Positions 1-13,578 of a stretch of DNA of 22,568 nucleotides are shown piece by piece. A program made the position numbers and the translations under genes. The notes beneath the pieces were generated by a model, which was given only the letters and a program-made list of their open reading frames with translations, did no database searches and was not told the DNA's origin. The stretch lies in the IMG/VR virus record IMGVR_UViG_3300046000_008192, positions 1 to 22,568 of that record. One strand, given 5' to 3'. The stretch's first letter is position 1; each line of letters begins with the position of its first letter. The DNA is from a virus.

Positions 1-3000
1 GAAAGCCACTTGTATTAGAAGTACCTGAAGTACCTGCGGTTCCGCTTCTACCTGCTGTACCATCTGTACCGCTTGAACCTGAAGTACCACTTGTGCCTGA
101 AGTATTTGAATCACCACTAGTACCTGCTAAACCTCTTGTTCCTGAAGAACCAGAAGTGCCAGAAGTACCTGATGTGTTTGATGAACCACTAGTTCCAGCA
201 GCACCTGTTATACCAGAAGTACCTGCTGAACCACTTGTTCCACTTGTATTACTTAAACCTGAAGTACCGGCAGTACTTGAAGCACCTGAAGTACCGGCTG
301 TTCCTGTAGAACCTGATGTTCCTGCTGAACCACTTGTACCTGAAGTGTTAGATAAACCACTTGTTCCAGCAGTATTTGAAGCGCCTGAAGTACCAGCTGT
401 TCCTGTAGTTCCAGATGAACCACTAGAACCTGAAGTACCAGATGTATTTGATAAACCGCTTGTACCAGCAGTTCCGCTTCTACCTGCTGTACCATCTGTA
501 CCGCTTGAACCTGAAGTTCCACTTGTACCTGAAGTATTACTGTCCCCAGAAGTACCTGCTAATCCACGAGTTCCTGAAGAACCTGTAGTTCCTGAAGTTC
601 CTGAAGTGTTACTTAAACCTGAAGTACCAGCTGCGCCTGTTGTACCTGATGTACCTGTAGTTCCTGAAGAACCACTTGTACCAGAAGTTGCACTAATACC
701 TGATGTACCAGCAACTCCATTTATTCCTGAAGTACCTGAAGTACCAGTAGTTCCTGAAGAACCACTTGTACCTGCTGTACCACTTGTGTTACTTAAACCA
801 GATGTACCTGCTACACCTGTTATACCTGAAGTACCATTTGAACCTGATGTTCCTGATGTGTTACTTAATCCAGATGTACCAGCTGTTGTAGATAATCCAC
901 TTGTACCCGCTGTTCCTGTTGAACCAGATGTACCACTTGAACCTGAAGTTCCTGAAGTATTTGAAAGTCCTGATGTGCCTATAGTACCATTTCTTCCACT
1001 TGTACCATCAGTTCCTGATGATCCTGATGTGTTTGATAAACCAGATGTTCCTGAAGTTCCAGAATTACCTGAAGTTCCTGATGTGCCTCTTGTACCAGAA
1101 GAACCAGATGAACCACTTATACCAGAAGTACCACTTGTGTCGTTTATACCACTTGTACCTGCTGTACCTCGTGAACCAGATGTACCTGAGGAACCTGAAG
1201 AACCTGATGTTCCTGATGTGTTACTTAATCCAGATGTACCTGCTACACCTGTTGTACCTGAAGTTCCATTTGAACCACTAGTACCTGAAGTATTTGATAA
1301 TCCACTTGTTCCAGCTACTCCATTTGTACCAGATGTACCATTTGAACCTGATGTTCCACTAGTAGCACTAATTCCAGATGTACCTGCTAATCCAGTAGTT
1401 CCAAAAGTTCCATTTGAACCTGAAGTTCCTGATGTATTACTTAAACCAGATGTACCTGCTACACCTGTTGTACCTGATGTACCTGTTGACCCACTAGTAC
1501 CTGAAGTGTTAGATAAACCAGATGTTCCAGCTGTTGAACTTATACCAGAGGTTCCAGCTGTACCAGTTGAACCACTTGTTCCTGAAGAACCAACTGTACC
1601 TGATGTATTAGATATACCACTTGTACCTGCTGTACTATTTCTACCTGAGGTTCCATCAGTTCCTGAAGAACCACTTGTATTACTTAATCCTGAAGTACCT
1701 GATGTGCCTGAATCACCAGATGTACCACTTGTACCACGTGAACCTGAAGAACCACTTGTACCTGAATTACCAGAAGTATTATTAGCTCCACTTGTACCAG
1801 CGGTTCCTGTTGAACCACTTGTTCCAGATGAACCAGATGTTCCTGAGGTATTACTTAAACCTGAAGTACCAGCGATACCATTAATACCTGATGTGCCTGA
1901 TGTTCCTGATGAACCAGAAGTATTAGAAATTCCAGATGTTCCTGCTATTCCATTTATTCCTGATGTACCATTAGTACCACTAGATCCACTTGTGTTAGAA
2001 GATCCACTTGTACCTATAGTACCACTTATTCCAGAAGTTCCTGAAGTACCACTAGATCCACTTGTGTTAGAAGATCCACTTGTGCCAGCTGTACCACTTC
2101 TACCACTAATACCATCTGTACCAGATGAACCAGATGTATTGGATAATCCACTTGTTCCAGCTGTACCTGAGTCGCCTGATGTACCTGATGTACCTCGAGT
2201 TCCTGAACTTCCAGAAGTACCAGATGTATTGCTTAAACCAGATGTACCTGCCACACCTGTTGTACCTGAAGTTCCATTTGAACCACTAGTACCACTAGTA
2301 TTAGATAACCCTGATGTACCTGCTACTCCATTTATACCTGATGTACCTGAAGTACCTGTTGAGCCGCTTGTATTAGATATACCAGAAGTTCCTGCTATTC
2401 CATTTATTCCTGATGTACCATCAGTTCCTGATGAACCACTTGTATTTGAAAGTCCTGATGTACCAGCTATACCACTTACACCTGAAGTTCCAGTTGAACC
2501 TGATGTGCCTGATGTATTTGAAAGCCCTGATGTACCTGCTGTACCACTTATTCCTGATATACCAGATGTTCCTGAACTACCAGATGTACCTGAAGTTGAA
2601 CTTAATCCTGAAGTTCCAGTTGTACCATTTCTACCAGATGTACCGTCAGTACCACCTGATCCTGAAGTGTTTGATAAACCACTTGTGCCAGATGTACCTG
2701 AATCACCTGAGGTTCCTGATGTACCATATGTTCCAGATGAACCAGATGATCCTGATGTTCCAGATGTGCTTGATAACCCTGATGTTCCAGATGTACTGCT
2801 TGCTCCTGATGTACCTGCGGAACCACTTGTACCTGATGTATTTGATAAACCACTAGTTCCAGTTGTACCACTAATACCAGATGTACCAAATGAGCCACTT
2901 GTATTGCTTAAACCACTTGTGCCAGAAGTTCCAGAATTACCTGATATACCATTTGATCCAGAACTACCACTAGTATTACTTACACCTGATGTGCCAGATG

Positions 3001-5578
3001 TACCATTACGGCCTGAGGTACCATCTGTTCCAGATGAACCACTTGTATTTGAAATTCCTGATGTACCTGATGTTCCAGCTATACCATTTATACCTGAAGT
3101 ACCATTTGAACCTGATGTACCTGAAGTTGAACTTATCCCACCTGTACCAGCTGTACTTGATATACCAGATGTACCAGATGTGCCAGATGAACCACTTGTA
3201 TTACTTAATCCTGAAGTTCCAGCTGTACCTGAAATACCAGATATCCCATTACTTCCAGAAGTACCAGATGTATTTGAAATTCCTGATGTACCAGCTGTAC
3301 CACTTATACCAGATATACCATTTGAACCTGATGTACCTGAGGTGTCACTTATTCCTGAGGTTCCAGCGGTACCATTTATACCTGAAGTACCATTTGTACC
3401 ATTACTACCAGATGTATTACTCAAACCAGAAGTTCCAGCAGTTCCTGAAACACCACTTGTTCCTTGAGAACCAGAAGTACCTGAAGTATCACTTATTCCT
3501 GAAGTTCCAGCGGTTCCTGATATACCTGATGTACCATTGGTACCATTTGATCCAGAAGTGTTGCTTAATCCTGAAGTACCTGCGGTACCGTTTATTCCAG
3601 ATGTTCCATTGGTTCCGTTAGAACCAGAAGTATCACTTAAACCTGAAGTTCCAGCAGTTCCAGAAACACCACTTGTTCCATTACTACCAGAAGTATTTGA
3701 AGTACCTGATGTTCCAGTAGTTCCAGAAACACCACTTGTTCCGTTTGAGCCAGATGTATTAGATATTCCACTAGTACCTGCTGTTCCGTTTATTCCTGAT
3801 GTACCTGAGGTACCATTACTACCAGAAGTATCACTCAATCCTGAAGTACCAGCTGTTCCTGAGATACCTGAAGTACCAGATGATCCATTACTACCTGATG
3901 TATTACTTGAACCTGAAGTACCTGCAGTACCATTTATTCCACTTGTACCTTGAGAACCTGAAGTGCCTGAGGTGTTACTAATACCAGAAGTTCCAGCGGT
4001 ACCATTTATTCCTGAAGTTCCAGAAGAACCATTACTACCTGATGTATCACTCAATCCTGATGTACCAGCAGTTCCATTTATTCCAGAAGTACCATTCGAT
4101 CCTGATGTACCAGATGTATTAGATAAACCACTTGTTCCAGCTGTTCCTGAAATACCAGACGTTCCATTTGTTCCGTTAGAACCACTAGTATTACTTATAC
4201 CTGATGTACCAGCTGTTCCTGATTCTCCTGAAGTACCATTGGTTCCATTAGATCCAGATGTATTACTCAATCCTGATGTACCAGCTGTACCATTAGTACC
4301 ACTTACACCTGAAGTTCCACTAGTACCTGATGAACCACTTGTACCACTTGAACCTGATGTGCCTGAAGAACCTGATGTTCTACTTTCTCCACTTGAACCT
4401 GATGTTCCTGAAGAACCTGATGTTCCGTTTGTTGAGGAATTTCCAGATGTTCCAGCAGTTCCGTTTATTCCTGATGTACCAGATGAACCATTAGTACCAG
4501 ACAAACCAGATGTACTGTTTGAACCAGATGTACCATGAGTTCCTGAAGAACCAGATGATCCACTTGTACCAGAAGTACCACTTGTATCAGAATAACCAGA
4601 TATTAATTTTCCAATTTGTTTAGATACAATAATAACTGAAGGTGCGGATGGATAATTTGGTCCTGCTCCTAAAGCTGTTATTTGTACATGTGAGTTTGAT
4701 GATAAAAATACAAATTCTACATAATCATTTACTTGTAAATCAAATTGATAAGCAACAAATGGCAACTGATAAGCTCCATTTCCAGCCATTGTAATTGTAG
4801 AAGTTGTACGAGGTTCATTATTGCCATTTATACGAGCCCATATAATAACATCTGTATCATTTGCATTTTGAGTTGCTTCTATTTGAGCAGAATATCCTAT
4901 TTCATATACTCCAGCATTATCAACTTTAATTCTAGAACCAGAAACTACTGATATACCACTTGATAATTCTGTTGTATTATAAGTCCATATTGTTGGTATA
5001 TCTGAACCACTAACAATTTGTGTAGTTGAATCACTAAATGAACCATAATAATTTGAACCAGTAAAAGCTGTACCTGAAGTACCTGATATACCGGATGTAC
5101 CAGATACTCCTGATGTACCTGAAGAACCATTAATTCCTGAGGTACCTGAGGAACCAGCTATACCAGATGTACCTGATGTTGTGGCAGGAACTATTCTATG
5201 TCTAACTTCACCTGTTAAAGGATCATATGTTAATACATCACTAAAAGGTGTTATTTCATTTTGAAGAGACTCAGCATATAATTCTAAAGCAGATGATGCT
5301 GGTTTTAATTTTATTATATTACTTTGTAAAGAAGCTGAATCATTAGCTAATTCTAAAGCATTTTTGTAACCTGTTTCAGTTTGTAATTTTTGTATACTTA
5401 CAAAATTACTAGCAGTTAAATAAATATCATCTGCTTTAAGAAAAGCACTAGCACTAGTGATAACAAAAATTTCTTCACCTTCAGAACCACTGAATGTACC
5501 ACTAGAACTAATTTGTAAATATCCAGAACCACTAGCTGTGAATAATAAACCTTCGGAATTATCTATAATATAAGACAT
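1..5578 (-). CDS. Giant Gly-x-x repeat tail fibre with C1q/TNF-like domain (3' end beyond window)
   Basis: I translated this frame from ATG at 5578-5576. It stays open to the left edge, giving at least 1,859 residues with no stop, so the C-terminus lies outside the window. Residues 1-133 are non-repetitive and end in a linker (VLTYDPLTGEV, 115-125) resembling the one in the neighbouring fibre. Residues 134-172 are a short Gly-x-x run. Residues about 173-325 look like a C1q/TNF-type jelly roll (IKVDNAGVYEIGYSAQI and, later, DYVEFVFLSSNS). From about 331 onward the protein is almost entirely G-[TSILVN]-[ST] triplets, broken at intervals by Asn or Asp in place of Gly. Such proteins in Bacteroidota phages are usually adhesin-like fibres; that role is inferred. 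The gene starts 16 bases after the previous fibre gene, with an ATATTTAT motif in the junction. The C1q-like domain is my reading of the fold pattern; I could not run a profile search. Confidence 0.85.
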   Translation of the reverse strand, partial: MSYIIDNSEGLLFTASGSGYLQISSSGTFSGSEGEEIFVITSASAFLKADDIYLTASNFVSIQKLQTETGYKNALELANDSASLQSNIIKLKPASSALELYAESLQNEITPFSDVLTYDPLTGEVRHRIVPATTSGTSGIAGSSGTSGINGSSGTSGVSGTSGISGTSGTAFTGSNYYGSFSDSTTQIVSGSDIPTIWTYNTTELSSGISVVSGSRIKVDNAGVYEIGYSAQIEATQNANDTDVIIWARINGNNEPRTTSTITMAGNGAYQLPFVAYQFDLQVNDYVEFVFLSSNSHVQITALGAGPNYPSAPSVIIVSKQIGKLISGYSDTSGTSGTSGSSGSSGTHGTSGSNSTSGLSGTNGSSGTSGINGTAGTSGNSSTNGTSGSSGTSGSSGESRTSGSSGTSGSSGTSGSSGTSGTSGVSGTNGTAGTSGLSNTSGSNGTNGTSGESGTAGTSGISNTSGSNGTNGTSGISGTAGTSGLSNTSGTSGSNGTSGINGTAGTSGLSDTSGSNGSSGTSGINGTAGTSGISNTSGTSGSQGTSGINGTAGTSGSSNTSGSNGSSGTSGISGTAGTSGLSDTSGSNGTSGTSGINGTAGTSGISNTSGSNGTSGVSGTTGTSGTSNTSGSNGTSGVSGTAGTSGLSDTSGSNGTNGTSGINGTAGTSGLSNTSGSNGTNGTSGISGTAGTSGISDTSGTSGSQGTSGVSGTAGTSGLSNTSGSNGTNGTSGINGTAGTSGISDTSGTSGSNGISGISGTAGTSGISNTSGTSGSNGISGISGTAGTSGLSNTSGSSGTSGTSGISSTAGTGGISSTSGTSGSNGTSGINGIAGTSGTSGISNTSGSSGTDGTSGRNGTSGTSGVSNTSGSSGSNGISGNSGTSGTSGLSNTSGSFGTSGISGTTGTSGLSNTSGTSGSAGTSGASSTSGTSGLSSTSGTSGSSGSSGTYGTSGTSGDSGTSGTSGLSNTSGSGGTDGTSGRNGTTGTSGLSSTSGTSGSSGTSGISGISGTAGTSGLSNTSGTSGSTGTSGVSGIAGTSGLSNTSGSSGTDGTSGINGIAGTSGISNTSGSTGTSGTSGINGVAGTSGLSNTSGTSGSNGTSGTTGVAGTSGLSNTSGTSGSSGTRGTSGTSGDSGTAGTSGLSNTSGSSGTDGISGRSGTAGTSGSSNTSGSSGTSGTSGISGTIGTSGSSNTSGSSGTNGTSGINGIAGTSGISNTSGSSGTSGTSGINGIAGTSGLSNTSGTSGSSGTSGSTGTAGTSGANNTSGNSGTSGSSGSRGTSGTSGDSGTSGTSGLSNTSGSSGTDGTSGRNSTAGTSGISNTSGTVGSSGTSGSTGTAGTSGISSTAGTSGLSNTSGTSGSTGTSGTTGVAGTSGLSNTSGTSGSNGTFGTTGLAGTSGISATSGTSGSNGTSGTNGVAGTSGLSNTSGTSGSNGTSGTTGVAGTSGLSNTSGTSGSSGSSGTSGSRGTAGTSGINDTSGTSGISGSSGSSGTRGTSGTSGNSGTSGTSGLSNTSGSSGTDGTSGRNGTIGTSGLSNTSGTSGSSGTSGSTGTAGTSGLSTTAGTSGLSNTSGTSGSNGTSGITGVAGTSGLSNTSGTAGTSGSSGTTGTSGTSGINGVAGTSGISATSGTSGSSGTTGTSGTTGAAGTSGLSNTSGTSGTTGSSGTRGLAGTSGDSNTSGTSGTSGSSGTDGTAGRSGTAGTSGLSNTSGTSGSSGSSGTTGTAGTSGASNTAGTSGLSNTSGTSGSAGTSGSTGTAGTSGASSTAGTSGLSNTSGTSGSAGTSGITGAAGTSGSSNTSGTSGTSGSSGTRGLAGTSGDSNTSGTSGTSGSSGTDGTAGRSGTAGTSGTSNTSGF
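2..4588 (-). repeat. Gly-x-x coding repeat tract of the giant fibre
   Basis: About 4.6 kb of degenerate 9-base units encode Gly-Thr-Ser, Gly-Ser-Ser, Gly-Thr-Ala and Gly-Ile-Asn triplets, read on the minus strand. Gly codons are almost always GGT or GGA. At intervals the Gly is replaced by Asn, Asp or Ser in a recurring context, GTSG-x-S-[ND]-T-S-G (for example near 4196-4215, 4250-4275 and 4050-4075). Near the left end the breaks are spaced 24, 9, 24, 9, 24, 30, 24, 27 and 33 residues apart, always a multiple of three, so the triplet phase is kept. Such a tract is prone to expansion, contraction and assembly collapse. Confidence 0.9.
5063..5179 (-). repeat. Short Gly-x-x spacer before the C1q-like domain
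   Basis: Thirteen triplets of the same GTS/GSS type link the N-terminal region of the giant fibre to its C1q-like domain. With the long tract on the other side, the globular domain is bracketed by Gly-x-x repeats. In animal C1q-family proteins the head instead sits at the C-terminal end of the collagen stalk. Confidence 0.8.
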
Positions 5579-5584
5579 CTAGTA

Positions 5585-5592
5585 ATAAATAT
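5585..5592 (-). promoter_or_regulatory. ATATTTAT motif before giant fibre gene
   Basis: The sense strand reads GAATATTTATTACTAG and then the start codon, so the motif ends six bases before the ATG (5578). It lies across the 16-base gap and the stop of the upstream fibre gene. It is one of seven exact copies found just ahead of genes in this window. A promoter core is the inference; an A/T-rich translation-initiation leader is the alternative. Confidence 0.35.
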
Positions 5593-5594
5593 TC

Positions 5595-7769
5595 TTAAAT
5601 CTTAACAGTGTACATTCTGAAGTAACAAACTGTTCTAAAAGAAGTTACAGTTGATACAGATGCATTACTATTAAATATATTTGTAATATTAATAACATTT
5701 CCAGTAGGGAATGTAATTGTTGGATTAGTTAAAGGTACAGTAGTTGTTAATACTTTTATTGGGGAATTTGTAGCAAATATTTGTTTTGTTTGTTGAACTG
5801 GTTGGTTAACTCCAGATGAGTTTTTAAATAAACTTCCTTTTATTTGATAATGTTCATAAAATTGTGTACCTGAAGAAACAACTGATATTGTTACTATATT
5901 AGCTTCAAATCCAACATAAATATTATTAGAAGATATTCTAGGTCTATTAGTTGTACTTGGTGATAAACCATCTGTTGTTAAATTATAAGCTACACCTTTA
6001 ACACTTCCACTACCTATTAATACAAAATCTTGTACTTGAGATTCTCCAGCAGCACCTGTAAAACTAACTGGAGAGAATATTAAACTTTTATTAGCTGAGT
6101 ATGTAGATCCACTAGTACCAAAGAAAACAGCTGTAGAATTATCAATTATAGGAAATTCAGTATTTCCAATAGTTGTAGCACTTGTAAATTTAACTACTCT
6201 GTTAGTAGTACCACTTACAGCTACAGATGTACCAGAAGTACCAGCTGTTCCTGATGTGCCTGATCTTCCACTTGAACCTGACGTTCCCGCAGTTCCTGAA
6301 GAACCTGTTATACCTGAAGTACCACTAGAACCTGATGTTCCTGTTGTACCTGAAGTTCCACTAACACCTGATGTACCGCTAGTTCCTGATGAACCTGATG
6401 TTCCGCTAGTTCCTGAAGTTCCACTTATTCCTGATGTACCTGAAGTTCCACTAACTCCTGATGTACCACTTGAACCTGATGTACCTGTTGTACCGCTAGA
6501 ACCTGACAAACCGCTAGTTCCTGATGAACCTGAAGTACCATTTGTACCACTAGTACCTGAAGAACCTGATGTTCCTGTTGTACCACTAGTACCTGAAGAA
6601 CCTGATGTTCCTGTTGTACCACTAGTACCTGAAGAACCTGATGTTCCTGTTGTACCACTTGAACCTGATGTTCCGTTAGTTCCTGATAAACCGCTAGAAC
6701 CTGATGTTCCTGATGAACCACTTGAACCACTTATACCGCTTGAACCTGATGTTCCTGATAAACCTGAACTTCCGCTAGTTCCTGATGAACCACTAGCTCC
6801 TGAAGAACCTGAAGAACCACTTGTACCGCTTGATCCAGATGAACCTGAAGTACCAGATGTTCCACTTGAACCTGAACTTCCGCTAGTTCCTGAAGAACCT
6901 GAGCTACCATCCGAACCACTTGTACCACTTGACCCAGATGTTCCTGAAGAACCACTTGTACCACTTGACCCAGATGTTCCTGATGAACCACTTGTACCAC
7001 TTGAACCACTTATACCGCTTGAACCTGATGTTCCTGATGATCCTGAACTACCATCTGAACCTGAAGTTCCACTTGAACCTGATGTTCCTGATGAACCATT
7101 ATTACCTGATGTTCCTGATAAACCACTTGAACCACTTGAACCTGATGAACCTGAGCTTCCACTAGTTCCTGATGAGCCACTTAAACCTGAAGTTCCTGAT
7201 AAACCTGAGCTACCATTACTTCCACTTGTTCCTGATAAACCACTTGTACCTGATGAACCACTGGTTCCGCTTGAACCTGAACTTCCATCGCTTCCACTTG
7301 TACCTGATAAACCGCTAGTTCCACTTGAACCTGAACTTCCATCGCTTCCACTTGTACCTGATAAACCTGATGAACCACTTGTACCTGATAAACCGCTAGT
7401 TCCACTTGAGCCTGAACTTCCATCATCTCCACTTGAACCTGAAGAACCGGAAGTTCCTGATGAGCCGCTTGAACCTGATGTTCCGCTAGTTCCTGATAAA
7501 CCACTAGTTCCGCTAGAACCTGAACTTCCATTAATTCCACTTGTACCTGAAGAACCAGCTGTACCACTTGATCCAGCTATAGTTGAGCTATAACTTACAT
7601 TACCTGTAGTACTATTATAAGATAATATATAATTTGGATTTGGATTATTTTGTAAACCTACAAGAGTTAATGTATCTGAACCAGATATATAAACACTACC
7701 AGACATTGTTAATGATCCTGATAAGTGTAGGTCAGTGACTAGTTGTTTACCTTTTATTTGTCCACCCAT
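5595..7769 (-). CDS. Gly-x-x repeat tail fibre protein (724 aa)
   Basis: The protein has three parts. Residues 1-65 are non-repetitive and end in the linker YILSYNSTTGNVSY. Residues 66-513 are an unbroken run of about 149 Gly-x-x triplets (GTS, GSS, GLS, GTT). Residues 514-724 form a non-repetitive C-terminal region that begins NRVVKFTSATTIGNTEF and is rich in beta-prone Thr, Val and Ile. The overall plan (short attachment head, long stalk, distal domain) fits a fibre or whisker-like adhesin at the virion surface, but I do not recognise the C-terminal fold. The start lies 2 bases after the stop of the tail-terminator gene, so the two are probably co-transcribed and translationally linked. Unlike the next fibre, this stalk contains no Asn/Asp breaks. 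The opposite strand also shows a long open frame here, which is a by-product of the codon pattern. Confidence 0.88.
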   Translation of the reverse strand: MGGQIKGKQLVTDLHLSGSLTMSGSVYISGSDTLTLVGLQNNPNPNYILSYNSTTGNVSYSSTIAGSSGTAGSSGTSGINGSSGSSGTSGLSGTSGTSGSSGSSGTSGSSGSSGDDGSSGSSGTSGLSGTSGSSGLSGTSGSDGSSGSSGTSGLSGTSGSDGSSGSSGTSGSSGTSGLSGTSGSNGSSGLSGTSGLSGSSGTSGSSGSSGSSGSSGLSGTSGNNGSSGTSGSSGTSGSDGSSGSSGTSGSSGISGSSGTSGSSGTSGSSGTSGSSGTSGSSGTSGSDGSSGSSGTSGSSGSSGTSGTSGSSGSSGTSGSSGSSGASGSSGTSGSSGLSGTSGSSGISGSSGSSGTSGSSGLSGTNGTSGSSGTTGTSGSSGTSGTTGTSGSSGTSGTTGTSGSSGTSGTNGTSGSSGTSGLSGSSGTTGTSGSSGTSGVSGTSGTSGISGTSGTSGTSGSSGTSGTSGVSGTSGTTGTSGSSGTSGITGSSGTAGTSGSSGRSGTSGTAGTSGTSVAVSGTTNRVVKFTSATTIGNTEFPIIDNSTAVFFGTSGSTYSANKSLIFSPVSFTGAAGESQVQDFVLIGSGSVKGVAYNLTTDGLSPSTTNRPRISSNNIYVGFEANIVTISVVSSGTQFYEHYQIKGSLFKNSSGVNQPVQQTKQIFATNSPIKVLTTTVPLTNPTITFPTGNVINITNIFNSNASVSTVTSFRTVCYFRMYTVKI
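6544..6651 (-). repeat. Three perfect 36-bp tandem copies in fibre stalk
   Basis: The plus-strand unit starts gtaccactagtacctgaag and ends cctgatgttcctgtt. It is repeated three times head to tail without a base change (6544-6579, 6580-6615, 6616-6651). Each copy encodes twelve residues, four Gly-x-x triplets of the GTSGSSGTSGTT type. Perfect identity, where neighbouring units differ at wobble positions, points to recent duplication. Confidence 0.9.
7271..7367 (-). repeat. 54-bp-period tandem duplication in fibre stalk
   Basis: A 43-base stretch beginning ttgaacctgaacttccatcg recurs exactly 54 bases later (7271-7313 and 7325-7367). A third, diverged copy follows near 7405. The period is a multiple of nine, so the Gly-x-x phase is unaffected. 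Confidence 0.85.
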
Positions 7770-9618: not shown

Positions 9619-11154
9619 TTACATTATATAAATTGGTGAAATAAATGGAATTTTATTTAAAGCATCTTGTTCAGATTGAGCTTCTAAAGCTTTTCTTTCA
9701 AGTTGTTTTTGTGTAGAAACTGAGTCAAGTATTTCTCTTAATTGAGTTAACAATTGTTCTTTTTCAGTTCTAGCGTCTGATGTTAAATCTGTAGAAGACA
9801 TAGCTCCTACACCAGGTAATGTTGCTGATGGATATTTTCCTCTAATGTATCCTAATGTTTCTTTACATAAAGATAAAGTATATCTCATAACCCAACTCTT
9901 ACCTACAGAATTAATATTAGAATATATAGGATTAGAATATGGTACTCGCATCATATCTGTAATTATTGGTGGTTCAGTAGCTGAACCTGATGGATTTCCT
10001 TCTGTTATTTTAAATACTTCTGAAAGTTTTCTATATTCAAATCTTAATATACCAGCACCACCAGTACCATCACCATCTCCACCATAAGGAATTGGGAAAA
10101 TAGTTAGTTGGTTATTAACTATATTAAATGTATAATCATTTGTTCTAACTTCACGTGACATTTCAATTTCTTGAATACGTTGTATATCAAAATAAATTGG
10201 CCACATCATAAAATTTGAACCAGGATAAGCGGCATTTAAACCAATACTATCAGCATATCCAGGTACACCTCCTAATCCTAAATAAGGATCATAATATTGA
10301 GTTATTGGTGGAGGTGGTTCATAAAAAACACGAGTAATTTCAATACCATCATATGGGCTAATACTAGCACTGGCTTGAGCCCAAGCATTCATGTCATAAA
10401 CTTGTTGATTATTTTTTAAATGGAGTTTTCCTTTATATATCGGGATAGCGCCCATATTACTTTGTTGTCCATATGATTCAGCAACTTTAACTAGTCCTGT
10501 AACTAAACCCGGTTTAATTAGCTTATTCGTTAAATTATATGCCGATTTGAACTTAATATAATTTACAGTTTGATTTTTACCACCAAGTGTTGTATCTGTT
10601 ACAAAGAAATTTATTAAAGATCCACTAATATATGTATATTGATTTAATACTTTACCACAATTTTGAATAGAAAAAGCATAAGCCATTAATGGATCAGCCA
10701 TAGACATTGATGGTAAATAACTACCTGATATTTTATATACTAATCCATCAACTATTGATTGGGATAAGGCACCATCACTATTAACTTCAGACCATGTAGC
10801 TACAGAAGCTGATGAAAATCTTACAGAAGCTGTAAAATAAGTTATATTATATTCACATAAAAAAGTATCAGTTTGAGCTCCTTCTAAAGATAAATAATTG
10901 GATTGAATTTTATATTGATAAACTTCATTGCCATAAGTTGTTACTGCTTCTTCATAAGCAGCGTATATTTGAAAATCGCATAACTCAACATCAACCGTAC
11001 CAAAACCTAAACGACGAGTTACAAAAAAACATGCTCTTTGAGCATCATTTTGAAATGAAGGATCCTGATCGTAATAACCAAAAGGTGTATTACCTGGTAC
11101 TGGAGATAAATCAGCTGTTGAGACTGCGTATGTATAAGTTCCTGAAGTAGCCAT
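9619..11154 (-). CDS. Probable neck protein, T4 gp13-like (511 aa)
   Basis: The assignment rests mainly on position: it follows the capsid/PhoH block and directly precedes gp14- and gp15-like genes. The protein contains PIYFDIQRIQEIEMSREVRT and FRYRKL-type segments typical of phage neck proteins, and a C-terminal helical stretch (about 465-500) rich in Glu, Lys and Gln. At 511 residues it is much longer than T4 gp13 (about 309). Part of the extra length is an N-terminal region (about 85-150) whose motif SASVATW...SQSIVD (115-136) is shared with the capsid protein encoded at 11932-13578. The start ATG lies 20 bases after the PhoH stop, with an ATATTTAT motif between. If it is not gp13, it is still a head-tail connector or other virion protein by context. 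Confidence 0.6.
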   Translation of the reverse strand: MATSGTYTYAVSTADLSPVPGNTPFGYYDQDPSFQNDAQRACFFVTRRLGFGTVDVELCDFQIYAAYEEAVTTYGNEVYQYKIQSNYLSLEGAQTDTFLCEYNITYFTASVRFSSASVATWSEVNSDGALSQSIVDGLVYKISGSYLPSMSMADPLMAYAFSIQNCGKVLNQYTYISGSLINFFVTDTTLGGKNQTVNYIKFKSAYNLTNKLIKPGLVTGLVKVAESYGQQSNMGAIPIYKGKLHLKNNQQVYDMNAWAQASASISPYDGIEITRVFYEPPPPITQYYDPYLGLGGVPGYADSIGLNAAYPGSNFMMWPIYFDIQRIQEIEMSREVRTNDYTFNIVNNQLTIFPIPYGGDGDGTGGAGILRFEYRKLSEVFKITEGNPSGSATEPPIITDMMRVPYSNPIYSNINSVGKSWVMRYTLSLCKETLGYIRGKYPSATLPGVGAMSSTDLTSDARTEKEQLLTQLREILDSVSTQKQLERKALEAQSEQDALNKIPFISPIYIM

Positions 11155-11164
11155 ACTATTTTGT

Positions 11165-11172
11165 ATAAATAT
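11165..11172 (-). promoter_or_regulatory. ATATTTAT motif before gp13-like gene
   Basis: The sense strand reads CCATATTTATACAAAATAGT and then ATG (11154). The motif sits in the short gap after the PhoH stop codon and could drive the neck and fibre genes separately from PhoH. It is one of seven copies. Confidence 0.35.
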
Positions 11173-11174
11173 GG

Positions 11175-11849
11175 CTAGTTTCTAAGTTGTTTATATATTT
11201 CTAATATTGGTTCAACAATTGGATGTCTATGATTTGTTTTTAAATGAATATATGATACACCTTCAATAGAATGAGCAATAGCTTTTGTTAGAAAAAACAA
11301 TCCACTATCTTTTTTATCTCTTAAATCTATTTGACCAGTGTCACCCACAATAGCCATTTTTGATCCTTCACACAAACGAGTTATAGCTAATTCCATTTGT
11401 GTATCAGTAATATTTTGAGCTTCATCTAGAATTATAAAAGCATTTGAAAAGTTTCTGCCTCTCATAAAAGCAAAAGGTATAATTTCAATTCTTCCTTCAG
11501 CGAATTCTTTATCAATTTTTTCTTTATTGTATAATCTATACATGTTATCATATATAGGTGCTATAAATGGATCTAATTTATCCTTTAAACCACCTGGAAG
11601 AAATCCTATTTCTTCTTTAGCAGTAACTACAGGTCTAGCTACAATAATTTTTTCAACTTCTCTATTAAATAATAAATCTAAACCAGCTTGACAAGCGGCT
11701 AAAGTTTTACCAGATCCAGCTAAACCAGTTATTACAGTAATAGTATTACTTAAAATTAAAGATTTAGCTTTTTTTTGCTCTTCATTCAGACTAAAATGAA
11801 ATCGAATTGGATTTTTAGGTCTGCGCTTTTCTTTGAAAACATCTTCCAT
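11175..11849 (-). CDS. phoH: PhoH-like P-loop ATPase
   Basis: The 224-residue protein has the whole PhoH core: Walker A GLAGSGKT (42-49), ARPVV (71-75), EIGFLPGG (80-87), Walker B FIILDEAQN (138-146), GDTGQIDL (169-176) and the arginine-bearing NHRHP (206-210). The family is a nucleotide-binding helicase-like ATPase, common in marine phages. Its role in infection is unsettled; links to phosphate stress and RNA metabolism have been proposed for the host forms. It lacks the added PIN or KH-type domains found in some family members. It sits alone between the capsid terminator and the neck genes, with its own upstream ATATTTAT motif, so it may be a separate transcription unit. The start is the first ATG after the terminator. 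Confidence 0.95.
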   Translation of the reverse strand: MEDVFKEKRRPKNPIRFHFSLNEEQKKAKSLILSNTITVITGLAGSGKTLAACQAGLDLLFNREVEKIIVARPVVTAKEEIGFLPGGLKDKLDPFIAPIYDNMYRLYNKEKIDKEFAEGRIEIIPFAFMRGRNFSNAFIILDEAQNITDTQMELAITRLCEGSKMAIVGDTGQIDLRDKKDSGLFFLTKAIAHSIEGVSYIHLKTNHRHPIVEPILEIYKQLRN

Positions 11850-11865
11850 AACAGTATATTCTATT

Positions 11866-11873
11866 ATAAATAT
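11866..11873 (-). promoter_or_regulatory. ATATTTAT motif before phoH
   Basis: The sense strand reads TTATATTTATAATAGAATAT, ending about 13 bases ahead of the phoH ATG (11849). It immediately follows the U-tract of the capsid terminator, which is where a restart of transcription would be expected. Confidence 0.4.
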
Positions 11874-11910
11874 AAAAAAAGAAGCCCAAGCTTGCGCTTG
11901 GGCTCTTTTA
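11874..11910 (-). terminator. Rho-independent terminator after capsid gene
   Basis: On the sense strand a perfect 9-bp stem, AGCCCAAGC / GCTTGGGCT (11883-11904), closes a GCAA tetraloop (GNRA type) and is followed by TCTTTTTTT. It begins 28 bases after the capsid stop codon. It is the only strong terminator I found in the window. It should separate the scaffold/capsid transcript from phoH. Confidence 0.9.
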
Positions 11911-11931
11911 AGGAATTATGCTAGTCTCTGA

Positions 11932-13578
11932 TTAGACAATGTTTAAGTCAGAAACAAACAAGTTAGCATAGAATTCAGGACGGATCATCTTCTTAGCATA
12001 ACGAGTCATAATACCTTTGTTTGGTGTGAAGGTATCAGGATCGTACACTAATGGAGTCATGATCAATGGAACGTATGGAGCGTAAACCGCACCAGCTTCT
12101 AAGAACTGATTTCCACGGAAACCTAACAACACAACGTTTTGAGTCATGTATGGGTTTTTGTAAACTTTGTAACGGCTGTTCAAAGCACCAATTTTCTGAA
12201 CACCAAAAGCATACTTCATAGCATCAGCATCAGCAGAAGCGTCAGCAGCAAATCCTGGGATAGATTCTAAAACTGTAGCTACAGCTGGAGAACATACTAA
12301 GAAGTTAGCACCACCACGTAAAGTTCTTTGGTGGATTGTGTTAGATAATTTTTGTAATTTGATACCAATTGTTTGGAACCAAGACATTTGAGTGTAGTAA
12401 ACACCAGATGTGTTAGATGTAAATGCTGTGTTTGAAGCATTAATTTGCATACCAACTTTAGCTGACCAGAAGTCAGTTGTAGCAGCATTTTGGATCAACA
12501 TATCTAAGATTTCAAGATCAATTTCCATAGAAATATACTCACTCAAAATAGAAGTTAATTCAGCTTCAGCGTCAACATTTTGGTAAGCATTCAAATCTTG
12601 AGCAAATTCAGGTGTCCACTGAGCTTTCAACTTACGAGTTTTAGCTGAGATAGTTTCATTTCTCAACTGGATGTTGATTTGTGGAATTGGGATTTGAGTA
12701 GTATCAGAAGCATTACGAGTTAAAGCGAATGGGTTCTGATCTTCAAAATCACCACGGAAACGAATAGTATCCTGTTTGTTATACAAGAAACTAAATGAAC
12801 CAGTGTCAGATACAACGTTAGCTAAACTAGAACCAGAAATAGTAAATACTAATTGACCAGCAGAGTTTAAGAAAGTAAACTGTGGTAACAATGTATCTGG
12901 AGTGATGAAATTGGCACTACCTGTCAAAGTAAAAGCAGCTAAACCATTGTAATCAAGAACAGAAGCATCAGTAATTGAGCTAGTGTTAACAAAGATTTGA
13001 ATGATTTTGCTATCAACTACTGATTGTGAGTAGTTAGCATCAAAATCAACTTGAGCCCATGTTCCTACAGAAGCAGAAGCAGCTGAAGTTAAAGATTGAG
13101 AGAATTGGTTAACTGAGTAACCAAAACGACCAGCTCCATATAAACCACCAGTAGCTGTGTTACCGAAGTTAGCTGAAGAATCACCATAAAGAGAATCACC
13201 AGATTCAAATGGTAATTTTTTATTACCATATTGGTAATCTAAATAGAATACTAAACCAGCAGGCAATGACATTGGTTGAACGCTAACAAATTCTTTAGCG
13301 GCAATCTGACCAAATACCTTACGTACCATTGGTAAAGCGATACCAGCCCATTGAGCGCCTGTACCGTTTGTAAAGTCAGAAGTACCAACTGTTGTGTTAG
13401 TTTCAACTACTAATTGCTTAGCTTGGTTTTCCAATAAAACCGCCATATTATTGCGGTTGCTGTCTTCAAGACCTTCTAAAAGTCCTGATTTTTCCCACCT
13501 AGAGGCTAAGCGAACAGCATCAGTTTGAGCTGACTGCCAGCCAGTAGTGGATTCTAAAAGAGAGTTAATTGTGCTCAT
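11932..13578 (-). CDS. Major capsid protein, T4 gp23-like
   Basis: The 548-residue protein builds the head shell. Family features are: IALPMVRKVFGQIAAKEFVS (80-99) followed by VQPM (100-103), matching the VQPM segment of T4 gp23; a central LKAQWTPEFAQDLNAYQNVD (317-336) with EAELTSILSEYISMEIDLEI; and the C-terminal block TRYAKKMIRPEFYANLFVSD. The N-terminus has several (L/I)-x-E sites suitable for gp21-type cleavage (LLE at 6-8, 33-35 and 48-50); which one is used is not visible. Residues about 155-280 form a beta-rich segment between conserved blocks, probably an insertion, and contain a motif shared with the gp13-like neck protein. By eye the gene uses more G/C-ending codons than its neighbours, as expected for a highly expressed protein. 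It is preceded by the scaffold gene (24 bases) and followed by a terminator. The leader is A-rich with no Shine-Dalgarno. Confidence 0.93.
   Translation of the reverse strand: MSTINSLLESTTGWQSAQTDAVRLASRWEKSGLLEGLEDSNRNNMAVLLENQAKQLVVETNTTVGTSDFTNGTGAQWAGIALPMVRKVFGQIAAKEFVSVQPMSLPAGLVFYLDYQYGNKKLPFESGDSLYGDSSANFGNTATGGLYGAGRFGYSVNQFSQSLTSAASASVGTWAQVDFDANYSQSVVDSKIIQIFVNTSSITDASVLDYNGLAAFTLTGSANFITPDTLLPQFTFLNSAGQLVFTISGSSLANVVSDTGSFSFLYNKQDTIRFRGDFEDQNPFALTRNASDTTQIPIPQINIQLRNETISAKTRKLKAQWTPEFAQDLNAYQNVDAEAELTSILSEYISMEIDLEILDMLIQNAATTDFWSAKVGMQINASNTAFTSNTSGVYYTQMSWFQTIGIKLQKLSNTIHQRTLRGGANFLVCSPAVATVLESIPGFAADASADADAMKYAFGVQKIGALNSRYKVYKNPYMTQNVVLLGFRGNQFLEAGAVYAPYVPLIMTPLVYDPDTFTPNKGIMTRYAKKMIRPEFYANLFVSDLNIV

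Follow-up and report, generated by a model that had tools for sequence, protein, structure and literature searches.

We consider it very probable that the major capsid protein and the gp13-like neck protein of the phage described here, one of a group of uncultured T4-related phages, carry homologous copies of one domain, located at approximately residues 151–272 of the former and 96–206 of the latter. This assessment is a joint one: it includes that the capsid copy is ubiquitous in this Far-T4-like clade, lies where T4 gp23 has its I domain and has the character of a hypervariable, exchanged cassette, and that the neck copy forms an all-or-none insert at a single site, is limited to one clade of necks and does not go back to recent copying from the capsid gene of its own genome. 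Domain sharing among the virion proteins of phages is already known; the pair at hand consists of the major capsid protein and the head-tail adaptor.

The stretch of DNA that was analysed, referred to as the window in the following, is an entire virus record of 22,568 bases, with its structural genes on the minus strand. Genes for a terminase, a portal protein, a Peptidase_S77 protease, the Gp23 capsid protein, PhoH, the gp13-like neck protein and collagen-like fibres are found on this strand. The capsid protein (548 aa; 11932–13578, minus strand) belongs to the Gp23 family, as seen from its matches to the Pfam profile PF07068 (E = 8e-78; 262.8 bits over residues 75–537), to phrog_138 (E = 1e-73) and to T4 gp23 in the PDB (E ~1e-29). 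Likewise, the neck protein (511 aa; 9619–11154, minus strand) falls into the gp13/Ad2 family by three concordant matches, namely to phrog_211 (head-tail adaptor Ad2, E = 3e-8), to T4 gp13 in the PDB (E = 4e-4) and, when its insert-free homologs are compared with T4 gp13 by hhalign, to the C-terminal 55 residues (95.7%). A PhoH-like gene (11175–11849, minus strand) lies between the two. The capsid protein is similar to those of Rhodothermus phage RM378, Flavobacterium phage immuto and Microcystis phage Mel-JY01, and phoH near the capsid gene is reported for Far-T4 phages (Roux et al., 2015, PMC4360716); the two features together place the window with this group.

Homology between the capsid domain and the neck insert

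A motif shared by the two proteins had been noticed in a first-pass annotation of this DNA, and its residues, coordinates and number of identities all proved exact on recheck. In a direct alignment, residues 168–189 of the capsid protein (SASVGTWAQVDFDANYSQSVVD; 13012–13077, minus strand) and residues 115–136 of the neck protein (SASVATWSEVNSDGALSQSIVD; 10747–10812, minus strand) agree in 13 of 22 residues and in 51 of 66 bases. For comparison, the best ungapped 22-residue match of the capsid protein to each of 400 shuffled neck proteins had 8.1 identities on average and 10 at most, and the Smith-Waterman score of 85 for the two natural sequences contrasts with a mean of 39.7 (SD 5.5, maximum 64) for 1000 shuffles. 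BLASTP aligns them across 106 residues with an E-value of 1e-5. Together, the shuffle tests and the BLASTP result show that the motif match is not due to chance and that the similarity extends well beyond it. The motif is the best-kept stretch of a similarity that spans ~90–110 residues, with an aligned core of ~80–90, and that also includes D154, F161, Q172, F183 and Y199 of the neck protein. By itself, the DNA similarity of the motifs adds little; 11 of the 13 identical residues share their codon, where about seven would be expected from codon usage.

The relationship becomes clearer on the level of profiles. With an HMM based on seven neck inserts and nothing else, we searched 2959 ORFs from 148 loci, a sample that consists mostly of fragment records and is biased toward relatives of the window's capsid. 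Besides necks, the HMM matched only capsids, approximately at residues 165–310 of their ORFs and including that of the window, whose capsid is also found with the neck insert (E = 6e-6). Separately built profiles of the neck insert and the capsid domain match each other in hhalign at 97% (E ~1e-11), and still at 97% without the neck lineage of the window, whereas control comparisons with other regions of both proteins stay below 2%. In 17 large records of related phages, reciprocal searches with both profiles found the domain in gp23-like capsids and gp13-like necks only; the neck profile locates a neck insert in nine of these records, and the capsid profile picked up each of the nine. A third protein carrying the domain was found neither among the 2959 ORFs nor in the 17 large records. 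The profile match, the clean insertion at a single site in the necks and the restriction to these two carriers bear out the first-pass proposal of one domain inserted in two virion proteins. An origin of the match by convergence, or by compositional coincidence in segments rich in Ser, Thr and Val, is extremely improbable: while S, T, V and A are indeed abundant in both regions and the aligned core is short, shuffles of the same composition never reach the observed match, the profile comparison stands far apart from its controls, and nothing besides necks and capsids responds to the neck-insert HMM.

From these profiles, we infer that the two copies would also share their fold, since the structural model of the neck domain, which is based on 14 sequences, is too poor to count (mean pLDDT 43.5); the succession of its strands and helices resembles that of the capsid model. 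The AlphaFold2 model of the capsid domain (12712–13152; pLDDT 79.5) has a mixed alpha/beta structure with strands and three short helices. Foldseek and VIA-align searches with this model yielded nothing above background in the PDB (best E 0.3; best Z 5.8, CusB), and T4 gp23 was not among the PDB matches listed. There is a viral match (UPI000018F68D, 523 residues, E = 1.7e-6), whose length equals that of the RM378 head protein. The capsid profile also matched a flagellin-hook-like PDB entry (E = 3e-6), which was rejected because the score adds up from four weak repeats in which no individual stretch reaches significance. Searches for Ig-like, FN3 or BIG2 families in Pfam gave no match for 14 neck inserts or for the window's capsid, and carbohydrate-binding profiles matched neither the neck inserts (Pfam, PHROG) nor this capsid. 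The idea of a decoration or glycan-binding module, also raised in the first pass, thus found no backing: neither the neck insert nor the complete neck and capsid proteins of the window match such a family in Pfam or PHROG, and no convincing relative of the capsid model's fold was seen in the PDB.

The capsid copy

The capsid copy (residues ~151–272; 12763–13128, minus strand) was delimited by hhalign to the neck inserts, by alignment with T4 gp23, by its divergence profile and by the AlphaFold2 model. It is present in 96 of 96 capsid homologs examined, with 121–167 residues between the anchors used, and also in the capsids of RM378, immuto and Mel-JY01. In the alignment with T4 gp23, it lies between conserved blocks and is flanked by E-loop-like linkers. 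It takes the same place in the Gp23 fold as the T4 I domain, after the conserved N-terminal block and before the one starting near IPQINIQLRNETISAKTRKLKAQW (PMC9958956), but differs from the latter in its size, ~120 residues compared with ~60 in T4, and in its sequence, which shows no similarity to T4 gp23 in this region (hhalign 0.4%). A homology to the T4 I domain on the sequence level was accordingly rejected (hhalign 0.37% and 0.17%, HMM E 0.1–0.34).

Within this conserved frame, the domain is hypervariable. In capsids that are at least 95% identical elsewhere, its median identity is 61% and its minimum 43%, and synonymous divergence is raised as well (0.10 outside versus 0.41 inside the domain for the pair L047/L061), with the reservation that alignment uncertainty inside the domain may inflate these figures. 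The edges of the variable cassette are sharp and lie near residues 151 and 286 of the window's capsid. Furthermore, the nearest neighbor by domain differs from the nearest neighbor by backbone in 53 of 97 sequences, L141 being a clear case. Cassette exchange among capsid alleles would be the simpler reading of this variability, because fast selection on the protein level alone would not lift synonymous change; no donor capsid in our sample was closer in the domain than in the backbone. One locus, L106, has two adjacent gp23-like capsid genes (2288–4024, 579 aa, and 4102–5805, 568 aa), which are 55% and 52% identical to the window's capsid, respectively, and both carry the variable domain.

Variable insertions in Far-T4 capsids, i.e. 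in the same phage group as judged by capsid and phoH, have been described before (Roux et al., 2015, PMC4360716). The available portion of that study makes no mention of cassette exchange, and its main text names neither neck nor gp13. The present analysis delimits the variable insertion of these capsids as a domain in its own right, with the behavior of an exchanged cassette.

The neck copy and its origin

The neck copy (residues ~96–206; 10537–10869, minus strand) is recognized by the length classes of the insert. At one site, neck homologs fall into two classes, 54 with 9–19 residues and 31 with 117 or more, and the flanks (‘..YKI..NYLSLEG..T’ and ‘..LNNKVI..’) align unbroken around it. On a neck tree built without the insert, one change suffices to explain its presence, and the 28 carriers of sufficient length form one side of a branch with 100/98 support; the necks of immuto and Mel-JY01 have no insert. 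In a low-identity alignment, the insert site corresponds approximately to residues 65–68 of T4 gp13, near the start of the swing domain. The motif region is absent from shorter gp13-like proteins, in agreement with its first-pass placement in the part that exceeds gp13 in length. Relatives that lack the motif in one protein and nevertheless align, which had been considered a potential objection to a common domain, do occur for the neck copy; as their alignment is intact, they rather identify this copy as a separable insert. The attribute ‘mobile’, given to the domain in the first pass, fits the capsid cassette with its exchange among related capsid genes, but sits poorly with a neck insert that changes once on the tree and with the lack of a third carrier.

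In some relatives, a module of ~85 residues (..FYIxTGSTxxxTAxNIxxKI..TTGS..) is in turn inserted in the neck domain, as seen in L103 (2159–4189), L131 (6620–8623), L142 (6938–8971) and L019 (8447–10921). Most of these necks have one such module and that of L019 apparently two, and necks with nested modules reach 825 residues. The module has no clear match in Pfam or PHROGs.

Neck and capsid copies are separate in the joint domain tree, which is unrooted, and no neck copies are nested in a capsid lineage. In the window and its nearest relative (L100/L081), the capsid copies are 35% identical and the neck copies 95%; together with the separate groups, this contrast points to a single old event instead of frequent copying between the genes. 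It appears probable to us that the capsid was the original carrier of the domain and that the neck gene received a copy of it in one event. The direction from capsid to neck is suggested by the wide distribution of the capsid copy and should be read with the weak key branch of the tree in mind (91% of bootstrap trees, SH-aLRT 35). Co-variation of the two copies was discarded as support, as the residual correlation across 25 genomes is weak (r = 0.24, p = 0.006) and confounded, and shared ancestry could cause it.

A separate acquisition by capsid and neck from a common outside source would also be compatible with the two groups on the tree and with the absence of neck copies inside the capsid lineage. 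We nevertheless hold it to be rather unlikely, given that no third carrier was found in the searched records, that the neck insert of L133 has no match when used as a query against 50,697 phage records, and that the capsid copy is far more widespread than the neck copy. There is much less still to commend a recent gene conversion within the window itself, between the capsid gene and the neck gene, although the identical bases and the excess of identical codons in the motif would be what it predicts. The window's neck copy groups with other necks on the domain tree, on which ground a recent conversion of these two genes was rejected, and SQS[VI]VD is the common form of the motif in necks and occurs in many other capsids, too. 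Moreover, the close relatives L081 and L001 have the same neck motif alongside a diverged capsid motif, at odds with a recent conversion.

Possible roles and known systems

In T4, gp13 forms a 12-membered ring; its swing domain (residues 52–192) has an anchor region in contact with gp23 and flips up, which brings residues 90–157 to the portal and gp23 (PMC12270204), while the I domain of gp23 rests on the neighboring capsid subunit (PMC9958956). In phage Milano, a loop of the neck protein connects to the capsid vertex (PMC10491603). By analogy, the neck-domain copies, twelve in number if the ring is T4 gp13-like, would be turned outward at the portal vertex, within the equivalent of the gp13 swing domain, and could help to seat the neck on the capsid via contacts like those of the capsid I domain on its neighbors. 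Such a seating role for the outward-facing module is a tentative proposal that we would not call probable, and the closest pair speaks against it insofar as capsid and neck copies do not track each other there. More doubtful is a further step, in which the neck copy of a capsid surface domain would imitate a capsid subunit, thereby dock the neck ring on the symmetry-mismatched vertex, and later have become a platform for nested modules.

An adhesion role has been proposed for the Ig-like domains of phages. Similarly, the domain may be an exposed, putative adhesion module on capsid and neck, directed at host surface glycans or particles, a reading that competes with seating, not with homology; we regard the two roles as about equally possible. 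The hypervariability of the capsid copy and its exchange as a cassette fit an exposed surface, the one or two extra modules in the inserts of some relatives resemble adhesive appendages, and in other phages, neck passage proteins can bear carbohydrate-binding domains (PMC10684548). On the other hand, the neck insert matches no carbohydrate-binding or Ig-like family, the capsid model has no fold match, and the neck copy has changed little between the window and its closest relative (dN 0.024, dS 0.21).

Ig-like domains are reportedly common to different structural proteins of phages. They resemble the present case in being separable and in recurring across virion proteins of tailed phages, and differ from it in that no Ig-like family match is found here, the capsid model is mixed alpha/beta, and the carriers are gp23 and gp13. 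That domains are shared across functional classes, among them neck proteins, is also found in a study on domain shuffling in phages (PMC10684548); the term ‘major capsid’ is absent from its text, and a capsid/neck pair is apparently not among its examples. Milano neck 1, with its beta-sandwich and head-joining loop, is another gp13-type neck with an extra part that reaches the capsid vertex, and this part is not described as capsid-related in the available portion of the report (PMC10491603). Our search of the open-access literature found no description of a domain shared by capsid and neck. The neck copy is a concrete candidate for how a neck might gain capsid contacts at a symmetry-mismatched vertex, and its clean presence or absence in related necks makes the role of the insert testable by comparison and removal.

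Apart from the head genes, the window encodes a collagen-like protein of 724 aa (5595–7769, minus strand; Pfam Collagen, E = 1e-65). A minus-strand frame of 1859 aa (2–5578), which exits the window, is probably of the same kind, and the large PxVPxVP ORFs on the plus strand of this region (2–7769) resemble antisense shadows.
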